Virus record (IMG/VR): IMGVR_UViG_3300042539_000900
Span: 1-62,475 of that record
Reading direction: 5' to 3' (one strand)
DNA from: a virus
DNA: 62,475 nt
This document shows, piece by piece, positions 3,264 to 60,470 of this stretch; position 1 is the first letter of the stretch, and the number at the start of each line of letters is the position of its first letter. The position numbers were made by a program, and so were the translations under genes. Under the pieces are notes generated by a model. That model ran no database searches, was not told the origin of the DNA, and saw only the letters and a program-made list of their open reading frames with translations.

Positions 3264-5821
3264 ATAAAAAGTATTTCTACTTAAACAATAAGCTAATTCC
3301 TTTTATTGCTGGCGGTATAGAATCAGTAGGTTCTACACTTACAGTAGATTTTCAAGGTAGTTTTAGCTATAACCCTAGTACCTCTAAAAGTACAGATATT
3401 CTTTATATGCAATTAGCTCTTGGTGAAGGCCCTATTTATAGAATAAATCCTAATGGGCCACAAGATATAGAGATTGATGGAAAATATATAGATGATTTAG
3501 TAGATTTCAGCACCAATAATACTAGACCAGAAATATTTGCTGCAAGATACGCTACTGGTACTGCTACACAAACAGCTATGCCGTCATTTTCTCAGGACAT
3601 TGTAACTCCTGTTAGATTTGTTAGCCCAGTCATATTAAAAAGTGGAATTTCTACTTTTACTAATACTCCAGCTCCCCCATCTACTAACATTTTATTCTAT
3701 CCCTCTAATTCTTCAGAAGGCTTAACTCCTATAGATTCTATAAAAATAAAATTCAATGTATTAGGGTTAAGAACCGAATTTAATGGCGGTAATGAACCCG
3801 CACAGCTATCTGTTGTAGGTTTAGTTCATGACTTTGTAGAGACATCAAACTTAAATAACTATATAGCTGGCGGTGGTTTATTAATTAACAGTATAGTTAA
3901 CGATAGCATGGCTGCTGAATTAGAACTTAAAATCCCAGAAGATAAAAGATCTAGTGAAGGCTATAATATATCCATATTAAAACTATCTGAGGATATTGCA
4001 GAAACAGGTTATGTTTCTGAAGTAGAAGTAATAGGTTTTGATGAAATTAGAAAACAAACTCACTCGTATCCAAAAACTGCGCTAGCCGGATATGCAGTTA
4101 AGTCTTCAGACTTTAGAACAGAATCTTTGCCTACATATACTAGTTTAGTTAAAGGTATGATTGTAGATGTACCATCTAATTATAATCAACCTATTTTAGC
4201 AAGCGGAGAAGTAGACTGGAGACAAATTGAAGTTCCTAATACGGGTGCCTTGAGTGCTGCAGTGTCGGGGTATAGACTACAAAAAACAGGATCTCAAATA
4301 TTAAATTCTCCAGATATTAATATTTATGATGGTATATGGGACGGGACTTACAAAAAAGACTGGACTGAAAATAGAGTATGGATAATAAGACACCTACTAG
4401 TTAACATACTAGGAGTTCCAGAGTCTTCTATAGATAAGTATAACTTTTATAATGCGGCACAGTATGTAGATGCGGTTGATGCTAAAACAGGTAATTTTAA
4501 CGGGGTAAATGGTTTTTCTGATGGCTCTTTTAGGTATAAACCTAATGGCTACCAAACTGAAATAGAGAATGTACTTTTAGGACTACCAGAAGGCACTCCA
4601 ATAAAAGAGAGACGTTTTGTATGTGGTTTATCTATTACTGACGAAACACCTATTATAGAGATTATAACTTCCTTAGCATCTAGTATGCGTGCAGTTTTTA
4701 GTAATGTAGGAAACAAGATTAGACTTATTGTAGATAAAGCAGAATCTATTCCTGTAGCTATATTCAATGAAACTAATATAGAAGCAGGATCTTTAAAAAT
4801 ATCTGGAGTAAGATCTGAAGAAGTACCTACAGGAGTAGAAGTTTCATATATAGACTTTTTAAACCATTTTGAAAAAACAACAGTAGTTATAGATAGCTCT
4901 GAGGTATTAGACTTTGAAGAGCCTAATAGAATATCAATTGATTTAGCAGGGTGTACTAGAAAGAGTGAGGCTTTAAGATTTGGTCAATATGCTCTAGATT
5001 CAGCTAGAAAACTTAAAAGAAAAATGCAATTTAATGCTTTTGCAGATGCATCAGATCTAGAAGTAGGAGATATTATTGCAGTGTCTCATACTATATCTGG
5101 AGTTTCTTATGGTTATGGAGGATTGGTACTAGCTAACTCTACTGTATCGTCCTCTAATGCATATCTAGAGCATATTACTAGTCCCTCTATTTCCGAAAGT
5201 TTATTTACTGCAAATACTAATCCTTTAGTACTAAAAATATTTAAACAAGCTAGTAATAAATTAGACTACTATATCATAAATAACAGCTCTTATAACCTAG
5301 TAGAAACAGGTAATACATCCTCTGGAATAGATTTAATAGATGTTAATATACTTAGTAAACTAAATATGTTAAATAAAACTTTTGAAGCTAACACAGCTTT
5401 TTCTACTATAACAGCTCCTACAAGAGGAGATTTGTGGGCTTTAGGAGAAATAGATCCTTCTAATATTTATAAAGATAGTAGTTATAAACTATTTAGAGTG
5501 GAGTCTATTACAATAAATAATGATGGCAAAACTTCTTTAGTAGTTACAGAATATAACTCTTCTATTATAGCTGATTCTGATTTAGCTGCAAAAAATGTAA
5601 TAGCACAAAGAAAGAGTAATCTAAATTATGTTACTCCACCACCACCACTACTATCATTAAGATCTATACCTTCTAAAACTACAGAAGGTGTTATTAATTA
5701 CAACTTACTTCTTAACGCTGTATCAGATACTACTAATTATAACGTACCAACAACAACAGTTGTAAATTATGGTACTATAGCTGTGGTTATAGAAATCGGC
5801 TCTTTTGAAGTTATAGGATAA
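3260..5821 (+). CDS. Tail tip/central hub protein, lambda gpJ-like N-terminal region
   Basis: 853 residues. Near residue 50 it has LQLALGEGPIYRI-type sequence (family: S-E-G-P-I), around residue 370 the segment ENRVWIIRHLLVNILGVPES, and near residue 470 RRFVCGLSITDETPIIEIIT followed by an inner-tube-like beta domain (GNKIRLIVDKAESIPVAIF). These are landmarks of gpJ-family hubs that close the tail tube and carry host recognition domains. In lambda J is one protein of about 1130 residues. Here the hub and the distal part appear split between this gene and the next. Translation couples to the gpI-like gene by ATGA. Confidence 0.85.
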   Translation: MNKKYFYLNNKLIPFIAGGIESVGSTLTVDFQGSFSYNPSTSKSTDILYMQLALGEGPIYRINPNGPQDIEIDGKYIDDLVDFSTNNTRPEIFAARYATGTATQTAMPSFSQDIVTPVRFVSPVILKSGISTFTNTPAPPSTNILFYPSNSSEGLTPIDSIKIKFNVLGLRTEFNGGNEPAQLSVVGLVHDFVETSNLNNYIAGGGLLINSIVNDSMAAELELKIPEDKRSSEGYNISILKLSEDIAETGYVSEVEVIGFDEIRKQTHSYPKTALAGYAVKSSDFRTESLPTYTSLVKGMIVDVPSNYNQPILASGEVDWRQIEVPNTGALSAAVSGYRLQKTGSQILNSPDINIYDGIWDGTYKKDWTENRVWIIRHLLVNILGVPESSIDKYNFYNAAQYVDAVDAKTGNFNGVNGFSDGSFRYKPNGYQTEIENVLLGLPEGTPIKERRFVCGLSITDETPIIEIITSLASSMRAVFSNVGNKIRLIVDKAESIPVAIFNETNIEAGSLKISGVRSEEVPTGVEVSYIDFLNHFEKTTVVIDSSEVLDFEEPNRISIDLAGCTRKSEALRFGQYALDSARKLKRKMQFNAFADASDLEVGDIIAVSHTISGVSYGYGGLVLANSTVSSSNAYLEHITSPSISESLFTANTNPLVLKIFKQASNKLDYYIINNSSYNLVETGNTSSGIDLIDVNILSKLNMLNKTFEANTAFSTITAPTRGDLWALGEIDPSNIYKDSSYKLFRVESITINNDGKTSLVVTEYNSSIIADSDLAAKNVIAQRKSNLNYVTPPPPLLSLRSIPSKTTEGVINYNLLLNAVSDTTNYNVPTTTVVNYGTIAVVIEIGSFEVIG

Positions 5822-57634: not shown

Positions 57635-58060
57635 ATGGATTTTATTTTTGATATTGACAGCACTATAAGTAACGATAATCACCGTTCTCACTACTTAAAT
57701 CAAGAGCGCAAAGATTGGGATAGTCACTATAAAGAGCTGGTTAATGATCCTACTATACCGCCCTCAGTAGCAGTTCTAGAAGCTCTGTACAATGATGGTC
57801 ACAATATTATTTTGTGTACGGGTCGTCCAGAGCAATACAGAAACCTAACTGTACAATGGTTAGAGAAACATAATGTACCCGCACACGATTTATTCATGAG
57901 ACAACCGCAAGACGGTTATGTAAAAAATGCGGAAGTCAAACGAATTATGATTGAAAGAATTAAAGAAAAAGGTTATAATCCAGTAGCCGTGTACGAAGAT
58001 AACCCGTACTCCGTGGAAATGTGGCGATCCTTGGGTCTAGTAGTTTACCAAGTTATATAG
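57635..58060 (+). CDS. Polynucleotide 3'-phosphatase-like HAD protein (Pnkp phosphatase domain type)
   Basis: 141 residues. FIFDIDSTISNDNHRSHYL has the HAD nucleophile D-x-D, IILCTGRPEQYRNLTVQWLE and HDLFMRQPQDGYVKNAEVKR match the T4 Pnkp 3'-phosphatase domain plan. Such enzymes heal cut RNA ends, for example host-cleaved tRNA. It lies among tRNA genes. It ends in TAG 58058, and the same frame stays open to 58255 through the next ORF, so amber readthrough would give a 206-residue protein. Confidence 0.8.
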   Translation: MDFIFDIDSTISNDNHRSHYLNQERKDWDSHYKELVNDPTIPPSVAVLEALYNDGHNIILCTGRPEQYRNLTVQWLEKHNVPAHDLFMRQPQDGYVKNAEVKRIMIERIKEKGYNPVAVYEDNPYSVEMWRSLGLVVYQVI

Positions 58061-59189: not shown

Positions 59190-59264
59190 GCGGGTGTAGC
59201 TCAGTGGTAGAGCGTCTGCCTTCCAAGCAGAATGTCGAGGGTCCGATCCCCTTCACCCGCTCCA
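59190..59264 (+). tRNA. tRNA-Gly (UCC)
   Basis: 75 bases. Acceptor GCGGGTG/CACCCGC, anticodon loop CTTCCAA (TCC), T arm GAGGG with loop TCCGATC (not the usual TTCGATC), end TCCA. Reads GGA. Confidence 0.95.
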
Positions 59265-59607
59265 ATTTACCGGTTTTCGGTTAAGTCCGGTCTACTACTG
59301 GCAAGCTGCTTGGCTCGATTAAGTTGCGGTATGAAAGTTAGCCCAAGGGTAAGATGTAGATAAAAACCGTATTAGTTTTATTCATCCTGTATCAGGATGA
59401 TAAGATAGAGGACTTAGGCTGTTGTAAATCTATCTGATCGAGAATTAACTCGAAATTAGTAATAGTCTATCTTCACATTGGATGTCGGTGTGAAAAGAAA
59501 TAAAATAGTTTCTGCGTAGCGGTGGCTATAGGGCATCCCGTATTTTAGGATCAGTTCAGCAACTAAAAAAGCTTGGATGTAGCAAAAAGATGATCCTGTA
59601 TAAATCT
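59265..59607 (+). ncRNA. Unexplained structured non-coding RNA, about 340 bases
   Basis: No ORF is supported. Predicted pairs: ACCGG/CCGGT near 59270-59297; AAGTCC/GGACTT (long range); TCATCCTG/CAGGATGA hairpin with a 3-base loop near 59385; AAGATAGA/TCTATCTT; TCGAG/CTCGA; TTCACA/TGTGAA; AGGATCA/TGATCCT closing the 3' end. It sits between two tRNA genes and is followed directly by a tRNA. Large ornate RNAs of GOLLD/ROOL type occur in phage tRNA regions, but I cannot match it to one. Confidence 0.6.
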
Positions 59608-59682
59608 GGTCCTAGAGCATGATGGCTATGCACGCGCCTCTAAAACGCTGAAATGCAGGTTCAATTCCTGTTAGGACCACCA
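59608..59682 (+). tRNA. tRNA-like gene with CUA (amber) anticodon
   Basis: 75 bases with full geometry: acceptor GGTCCTA/TAGGACC, D arm GCAT-GATGGCT-ATGC, 7-base anticodon loop CTCTAAA (anticodon CTA), variable GAAAT, T arm GCAGG-TTCAATT-CCTGT, ACCA. The anticodon stem CGCGC/ACGCT has only three pairs with mismatches at both ends. It reads UAG if charged. Confidence 0.7.
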
Positions 59683-59743
59683 ACAAAAAGAGGGAGACTT
59701 ACAAATGAAAGAGTTTCATTCGTAGATAAAAAAGCCACCTTAA

Positions 59744-59787
59744 CCTTGATTACAGCTTAATTATAATTTATATTAACTTAATCAAGG
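59744..59787 (+). promoter_or_regulatory. Promoter overlapping a ribosome-site-masking inverted repeat
   Basis: Promoter: TTGATT (59746-59751), 17-base spacer, TATATT (59769-59774). Inverted repeat CCTTGATTA (59744-59752) / TAATCAAGG (59779-59787) spans 26 bases; its right arm covers the AAGGAG ribosome site of the gene at 59796 and its left arm covers the -35. Readthrough RNA would mask the site, promoter RNA would not. Confidence 0.65.
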
Positions 59788-59795
59788 AGAAAATA

Positions 59796-60257
59796 ATGTC
59801 TATAGAACTAAAAATCAAATCAAAGCACCTTTCAGAAGAAGCTCGTATCATTCGTTTTGAAGAGCGCAAGCTACTCAAGCAGCATCAGTGGTCTCTCAGC
59901 AAATATAGAGAAGCTGGACACAACGACATATACCCACGCTGGCATGATAAAGCGTTTATTAGTTATAATTCGCTCAATCGCCATCGTCGTTGGGATGTTC
60001 GTAACGAGAATCGTGCTACCTTCCTTGCTCGTGCTTATCTCGCTGGCAAATCATATAAGTCTGTTGAGAATAAGTGCAATGATACATCTGTACTTCGTGC
60101 TCATATACTTCCTCGTGTTTGCGAGATGATAAACAAGTATGGACCTGCTGCTGATAAACTGAGCAAGAAGTGGAACAACGAGCGTAAGCGTTATGAGTAC
60201 GACGCAGAACCTTGGAAGGCTCACTGCGAAAAAGTAAAGACTTGGATTGAAAGCTGA
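59796..60257 (+). CDS. Conserved hypothetical protein in the tRNA region
   Basis: 153 residues, basic, Arg-rich. ARIIRFEERKLLKQHQWSLS, SLNRHRRWDVRNENRATFLA and YLAGKSYKSVENKC form a recurring phage pattern (H-R...D-V-R-x-E-x-R-A...A-x-A-x-x-x-G-x-x-Y). Coding sequence is GC-richer and more host-like than nearby genes. Probably highly expressed and nucleic-acid-binding. Expression appears hairpin controlled (see 59744-59787). Confidence 0.75.
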   Translation: MSIELKIKSKHLSEEARIIRFEERKLLKQHQWSLSKYREAGHNDIYPRWHDKAFISYNSLNRHRRWDVRNENRATFLARAYLAGKSYKSVENKCNDTSVLRAHILPRVCEMINKYGPAADKLSKKWNNERKRYEYDAEPWKAHCEKVKTWIES

Positions 60258-60470
60258 TATATACTATTTGGATGGATACTGCAACCAAGCAAGTAAGGTA
60301 ACTTACATGTTCATGCGGTTATGATAGTATCATCGAGGTCCACAGACCATCCAGTTATTAATTTGTGGATAGTACGTGATATGAGTCTAACCCACGTTAC
60401 ACTAGCGTGAAGTGATCCTTGGCTCCGGCTCTATGGATCGGTGTGACAGCTCGGAGAGACGAGCGCTTAT
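60258..60470 (+). ncRNA. Second structured non-coding stretch before tRNA-Leu
   Basis: No ORF is supported in this 213-base gap. Pairs: TGGATGG (60269-60275) with CCATCCA (60347-60353); GTAAG (60293-60297) with CTTAC (60302-60306); GGTCC...; GATCC/GGATC near 60415-60440; GCTC/GAGC near 60450-60463. Dense complementarity suggests one or two folded RNAs, possibly part of the tRNA transcript. Confidence 0.5.

Follow-up and report, generated by a model that had tools for sequence, protein, structure and literature searches.

The function of the structured RNAs that are found in phage tRNA islands is an open question. Two such structured phage RNAs of unknown function, GOLLD and ROOL, often lie in or near tRNA islands and contain pseudoknots (PMC12286853). 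The question is raised anew by the IMG/VR viral contig IMGVR_UViG_3300042539_000900 (62,475 nt, analysed over its whole length and referred to below as the window), which carries ten plus-strand tRNA genes in an array at 56.8-60.6 kb. Within this array, positions 59265-59607 fill the exact gap between the genes for tRNA-Gly(UCC) and for a tRNA-CUA. A sequence-only reading of the contig had described this region as a single long structured RNA without an open reading frame, directly joined to a tRNA gene, had likened it to giant RNAs of the GOLLD/ROOL type, and had suggested that it could regulate tRNA processing, packaging or virion assembly. What, then, does the gap encode? We find that it holds three small structured RNAs between tRNAs, rather than one giant RNA, and that a single tRNA island here carries several uncatalogued RNA families together:

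59190-59264, plus strand: tRNA-Gly(UCC), whose CCA end abuts RNA A
59265-59373, plus strand: RNA A, ~109 nt, with homologues in L223=L269 and L303 (covariance model R3)
59377-59543, plus strand: RNA B, ~168 nt, a double pseudoknot, based on covariance models R1 and R2, pair counts and ten lineages
59547-59599, plus strand: RNA C, a frame element of ~55 nt, belonging to the frame family, with same-place relatives in L169, L174 and L208
59608-59682, plus strand: tRNA-CUA, an amber suppressor (tRNA-Pyl in the naming of ARAGORN)

The descriptive part of the sequence-only reading was borne out. No ORF of at least 40 aa lies inside 59265-59607 (the overlapping frames begin in upstream tRNA genes), the region is flush both with the end of tRNA-Gly(UCC) at 59264 and with the start of tRNA-CUA at 59608, and the two stems that had been singled out, TCATCCTG/CAGGATGA and AGGATCA/TGATCCT, are present at 59382-59389/59393-59400 and 59547-59553/59591-59597, respectively. 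That no known family could be matched by eye agrees with Rfam 15, in which no family reached its gathering score and no credible match appeared down to E = 5. Judged by energy alone, the fold of the region is only a little better than would be expected by chance (-89.6 kcal/mol, z -2.25, equalled by 1 of 100 shuffles); the comparison with relatives provides far stronger evidence.

A homology search with the whole region returned only a near-identical longer contig, plus ~60 nt of C, and the same query against the phage GenBank collection gave a single 34-base match, located at the tRNA end of the query. Since the whole-region search was nearly empty, ~146 loci (designated by L numbers) were fetched via two neighbouring proteins and were then searched segment by segment. 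The region proved to consist of three segments, A, B and C, each of which has its own relatives in other phage tRNA arrays. The notion of a single long RNA had to be abandoned, as the three segments each occur separately in other phages. A and B are RNA families absent from the public catalogue (Rfam 15 being the catalogue that was searched), and in a full-text literature search, of incomplete coverage, neither A nor B nor the frame family was found to be described.

The fold of B is the best documented by covariation. The loci L013, L019 and L074 were connected mutually by nhmmer, and alignment of the window with them revealed common hairpins. In the first four B sequences 19 of 28 pairs had changed on both sides, and 94.6% of the cells were paired, versus 31-44% when the partners were slid. 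Model R1 added further lineages and a signature scan added more. The resulting structure contains the following elements:

59382-59400, plus strand: hairpin P1, TCATCCTG/CAGGATGA, in 8 of 8 aligned sequences, with differing stems
59403-59435, plus strand: hairpin P2, AGATAGA/TCTATCT, double-sided change in 6 of 7 pairs; its loop contains the 5' side of pseudoknot a
59418-59423/59461-59466, plus strand: pseudoknot a, GCTGTT/AATAGT, six pairs in 8 of 8 aligned sequences and seven in L288
59438-59453, plus strand: hairpin P3, TCGAG/CTCGA, with conserved loop AATTAA, double-sided change in 4 of 5 pairs
59472-59494, plus strand: hairpin P5, TTCACA/TGTGAA, double-sided change in 5 of 6 pairs; its loop enters pseudoknot b
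59480-59486/59532-59538, plus strand: pseudoknot b, GGATGTC/GGCATCC, seven pairs in ten lineages
59505-59529, plus strand: hairpin P6, ATAGT/GCTAT, with inner CTGC/GCGG, 97.5% and 87.5% of cells paired

Over the eight aligned lineages 92.2% of the helix cells pair, versus 31-43% when the partners are slid. Of the 37 pairs, 25 have changed on both sides (11.9 in shuffles, with none of 500 reaching 25). Covariation among homologues, on which the earlier claim of structure had been made to depend, is thus present in segment B. It extends to the pseudoknots. Five of the seven pairs of pseudoknot b changed on both sides in the eight aligned lineages, and the variants GCCCGTC/GGCGGGC, GTCCGTC/GGCGGAC and GCCGCGC/GCGCGGC form seven pairs each time. 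Pseudoknot a, for which the variants GCTGTT/AACAGT, GTTGCT/AGCAAC, GTTTGA/TCAAAC and AGCACT/AGTGTT were found, keeps 6/6 or 7/7 pairs in nine lineages, with none of 2000 shuffles as good. L288 (E 1e-9) and L289 (E 1e-6) were picked up by model R2, in which neither pseudoknot is encoded as a helix; pseudoknot b is kept in both lineages and pseudoknot a in L288. Judged by these substitutions, both pseudoknots are maintained by compensatory change and B is a new RNA family, which gains a covariation-supported fold with two pseudoknots. We consider B to be, very probably, a genuine structured RNA. Three weaker matches, L290 (E 0.04) and L156 and L157 (E 0.04-0.1), were left out of the homologues. 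The phage GenBank collection, searched for B, contained none, and a scan of bacterial genomes with the B signature gave ten matches, none of which was supported by model R2.

The surroundings of B are variable. It starts 0-2 nt behind a tRNA-Pro in L283 and L272, and it ends 10 nt before a tRNA-Leu in L272, immediately (0 nt) before a tRNA-Leu in L288 and 1 nt before a tRNA-Met in L289. It is also close to tRNAs in the window, L013 and L019, and is not tRNA-adjacent in three lineages (L277=L282, L281 and L024). Since the tRNA beside it varies between phages, B does not belong to any particular tRNA gene.

Homologues of A were identified in L223 and L269, which are identical, and then, via model R3, in L303 (E 1.7e-13). 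In all three lineages A begins 0-3 nt behind a tRNA, the tRNAs concerned being Gly, Phe, Lys and Val. The elements of the fold in the window are:

59271-59277/59363-59369, plus strand: helix P1, CGGTTTT/AAAACCG
59278-59280/59287-59289, plus strand: small hairpin CGG..CCG
59291-59295/59356-59360, plus strand: helix P2, TCTAC/GTAGA, two double-sided changes between the window and L223
59316-59328, plus strand: conserved apical CGATTAAGTTGCG

By inspection, an inner helix that surrounds the conserved CGATT(A/C)AGTTGCG shows concerted change (CTTGG..CCAAG in the window, TTATAAGA/TCTTATAA in L223 and CATATA/TATATG in L303). As A is represented by only three lineages, its fold is less secure than the fold of B; A is probably a real structured RNA. 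By-eye guesses of a group I intron, an HDV-like or a hammerhead core for A and B were rejected, the conserved cores being lacking; Rfam was the sole resource otherwise tried for such cores.

RNA C belongs to a much larger family, whose members share a frame around a variable insert. The layout is a stem [A/G]GGNNNN, the core TTCAGCAA (also TACAGCAA or TACTGCAA), the insert, which is often A-rich, the second stem arm, and TGTT. In the window its parts are located as follows:

59547-59553/59591-59597, plus strand: outer stem AGGATCA/TGATCCT
59555-59562, plus strand: core TTCAGCAA
59571-59583, plus strand: inner hairpin GCT-TGGATGT-AGC

C thus has the outer stem, the TTCAGCAA core, a tail and the same-strand tRNA neighbours of the family, with TGTA in place of TGTT as its tail, and a close relative occupies the same place before tRNA-CUA in L169, L174 and L208. 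Among the loci collected, the family counts 303 distinct copies in 108 loci. A perfect stem was part of the score by which these copies were chosen; the evidence for the stem was therefore taken solely from an unbiased test, in which viral contigs were scanned with just the 5' half. Here, ATCCTG was found within 150 nt in 117 of the 124 distinct 5' halves, versus 3.75 expected, and the free stem positions were complementary in 115 of those 117, versus about 48-51 in shuffles. Copies that start at most 10 nt behind a tRNA number 137 of 301 (1.7% at random), and the tRNAs that neighbour frame copies lie on the same strand by 2676 to 1. A possible mutual pairing between the TGTT tail and the core is nearly invariant across copies. 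There is little doubt that the frame family is real.

In L044 (3414-3803), three frame elements follow one another in the gap from tRNA-Leu to tRNA-CUA; the insert of the first is well over 100 nt long, and the third has the outer stem AGGTTGTA/TACAACCT. A further conserved non-coding block of ~240 nt, in which no resemblance to A or B was detected, occurs in L061 (3577-3816) and ~25 other loci, and lies directly upstream of tRNA-CUA in several phages.

The frame of C recurs in hundreds of elements, and a large proportion of these imitate an anticodon arm or an entire tRNA body that lacks a usable acceptor end. Anticodon-arm hairpins, defined by five pairs and a seven-base loop (C/T)T-NNN-A(A/T), were found in 123 of the 303 copies versus 3.7 in shuffles, about 11 of them being T-loops; the commonest loop triplets in the inserts are UUU, UGU, UCU, GGA, GUU, GUA, UGA and GCA. 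Other members contain an anticodon arm, a T-arm, a capped acceptor and a D-arm in circularly permuted order, and 15 of 16 such elements were called tRNAs by ARAGORN when rotated back. The anticodons of the rotated elements include Tyr GUA, Ser GGA, Cys GCA and Arg ACG, and differ among closely similar elements. Permuted bodies with a capped acceptor are located, for instance, at L041 4465-4579, L050 4543-4657, L153 2346, L175 3697, L163 4312 and L264 1806; closely similar permuted copies in different phages carry GUA, GGA, GCA, ACG and UAG. By inspection, the acceptor-closing loop includes CCA in a few permuted members, and these may be processed to a true tRNA. For C in the window, no recognisable anticodon or T-arm mimic, tRNA-like module or permuted tRNA was found. 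A GAU anticodon in the hairpin GCT-TGGATGT-AGC was considered and rejected, as it has no U33 and a stem of three pairs. Its hairpin being without anticodon features, C belongs to the family by its frame and not by mimicry.

How do these RNAs relate to those already known? GOLLD (RF02032) and ROOL (RF03087) are closest in setting, but they are several hundred nt long, whereas A, B and C measure ~109, ~168 and ~55 nt, and 59265-59607 had no match to either covariance model, down to E 5. The GOLLD model does detect RNAs in L019 (7688-8146, in an array with B) and in L303 (2235-2693, in an array with A); the one in L303 overlaps a tRNA-Pro gene. Neither the YrlA model (RF02553, gathering score 69 bits) nor the tmRNA models (standard and permuted) nor the tmRNA search of ARAGORN matched the region. 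None of the three RNAs is GOLLD, ROOL, tmRNA or a proven Y RNA. The permuted tmRNA (RF04321) shares the tRNA-array neighbourhood in L034 (3225-3690) and L067 (2506-2928), where it is located upstream of a conserved ORF discussed below and, in L034, also of tRNA-CUA. A likeness to YrlA is limited to the permuted frame elements of other phages, which score 27-40 bits on the model and align over its tRNA-like part; C in the window lacks such a module. The frame elements differ from YrlA in having their own outer frame (AGGAT..TTCAGCAA..ATCCTGTT) and varying anticodons, and no Ro60 gene was found.

These comparisons bear directly on the alternatives. The whole of 59265-59607 could be one ornate RNA of the GOLLD/ROOL kind, ~343 nt or longer, that assembles into a particle, and its position in a tRNA array, extensive structure and pseudoknots do recall GOLLD and ROOL (PMC12286853). 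However, the region has no Rfam match, A, B and C are found without one another in other phages, and a separate GOLLD exists in the arrays that hold B (L019) and A (L303); we regard this kinship, to which the sequence-only reading had pointed, as very improbable. It is also improbable that the elements are YrlA-like Y RNAs, which would bind a Ro60/Rsr-type protein and tether RNases. Permuted frame members match YrlA (L028 39.7 bits, L026 39.5 bits, E about 3e-5), and Y RNAs have been reported in mycobacteriophages (cited in PMC12282133), but every match is well below the gathering score of 69, a TROVE/Ro60 gene was found in 0 of 24 records, and A, B and the frame members with only an anticodon loop are without Y RNA features.

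A more modest role would be that of spacers or punctuation, in which compact folds between tRNAs aid processing or pre-tRNA stability and have no function in trans. The flush placement and strand bias of the frame copies and the flush joints of A and B are what one would expect of such spacers, but B also occurs away from tRNAs (L277, L281), and two conserved pseudoknots and the exchange of anticodons in near-identical elements exceed the needs of spacing, which makes this explanation unlikely. For B, there is in addition the proposal of a cis-regulatory, riboswitch-like leader of a downstream gene. It lies just upstream of an ORF in L281 and L024, but elsewhere the next gene is mostly a tRNA, different each time, and no common downstream gene was seen, so that we give this proposal little credence.

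Given the observed structure, conservation and location of the three RNAs, and the mimicry of tRNAs by some frame-family members, our preferred reading is that of three trans-acting RNAs freed by tRNA processing, with the frame family serving as decoys. A, B and C would probably be co-transcribed with the tRNA array and would be released by the enzymes that trim the adjacent tRNAs, namely by 3' maturation of tRNA-Gly and by RNase P at tRNA-CUA. Judging from the flush joints, these RNAs are more likely to be products of tRNA processing than its regulators. Once freed, they may act in trans as stable structured RNAs. Frame members would occupy host enzymes that bind or cut tRNAs, anticodon nucleases above all, and would be neither charged nor used in translation. 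A capped or absent acceptor end would block charging, which makes a role as extra tRNA unlikely, and decoys for anticodon-specific enzymes would be expected to vary in their anticodon while keeping the frame constant, as is seen in these elements. For A and B, it is solely their shared location that points to a possible trans-acting, host-directed role. As a whole, this explanation is tentative and stands at somewhat less than an even chance.

Phage-encoded tRNAs are a countermeasure to tRNA-cutting defence. The frame elements share with them the same arrays and the same presumed opponents; unlike phage tRNAs, they could not be aminoacylated, the acceptor being absent or capped. An earlier proposal assigns such a task to bacterial YrlA, whose tRNA-like domain would serve as a decoy for an anticodon nuclease (PMC7790460). 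It is conceivable, though this goes a step further and is more doubtful, that tRNA islands are RNA arsenals of modular, non-chargeable decoys with anticodons matched to host defences, plus A and B. If true, real tRNAs would be accompanied by decoys that exchange their anticodons within a shared stem-and-TTCAGCAA frame. In any case, whether phages produce tRNA decoys to counter tRNA-cutting defences becomes a question that can be tested.

The tRNA array of the window also contains, at 57635-58060, a polynucleotide-kinase-type 3' phosphatase (HAD_PNKP), possibly a tRNA repair gene. Such a phosphatase is as expected if tRNAs are damaged in infection. The scarcity of T4 Rnl1-type RNA ligase, found in 6 of 24 phage records and not in the window, and the absence of RtcB (0 of 24) and of a Ro60/Rsr (TROVE) gene (0 of 24, with a positive control genome; many records may be incomplete) count against the decoy explanation, as do the want of mimicry in C and the occurrence of B away from tRNAs in three lineages.

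On the 3' side of tRNA-CUA, at about 59706-59744, a leader reading MKEFHS-UAG-IKKPP-stop is found, followed by a conserved ORF (59796-60257) of unknown family, for which no Pfam or PHROG match was obtained. A leader with an amber codon and Pro-Pro-stop is present in the 220 nt before this ORF in 31 of 51 related loci, versus 1 of 1020 shuffles, and a tRNA-CUA is located just upstream of most such leaders. In the window, the hairpin CCTTGATTA/TAATCAAGG would make the ribosome-binding site of the ORF inaccessible. Likewise, the ribosome-binding region of the ORF has a possible pairing partner around or behind Pro-Pro-stop in 34 of 42 distinct loci, the sequences differing between phages. Leader and hairpin could possibly form a translational attenuator that opens only on UAG readthrough. 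TAG is an ordinary stop in the window phage, where it ends 6 of 69 long ORFs. In L018 and L022 (around 3900-4000) the leader has, by inspection, no stop after the amber codon and apparently continues in frame into the ORF, so that readthrough would yield an extended protein instead.

Finally, a second structured non-coding stretch of the window, 60257-60470, extends from the 3' end of the conserved ORF to tRNA-Leu. It is a frame-like element, TGGATGG-ATACTGCAACC...CCATCCA-GTTA, and is conserved in L003-L010, L012 and L019.
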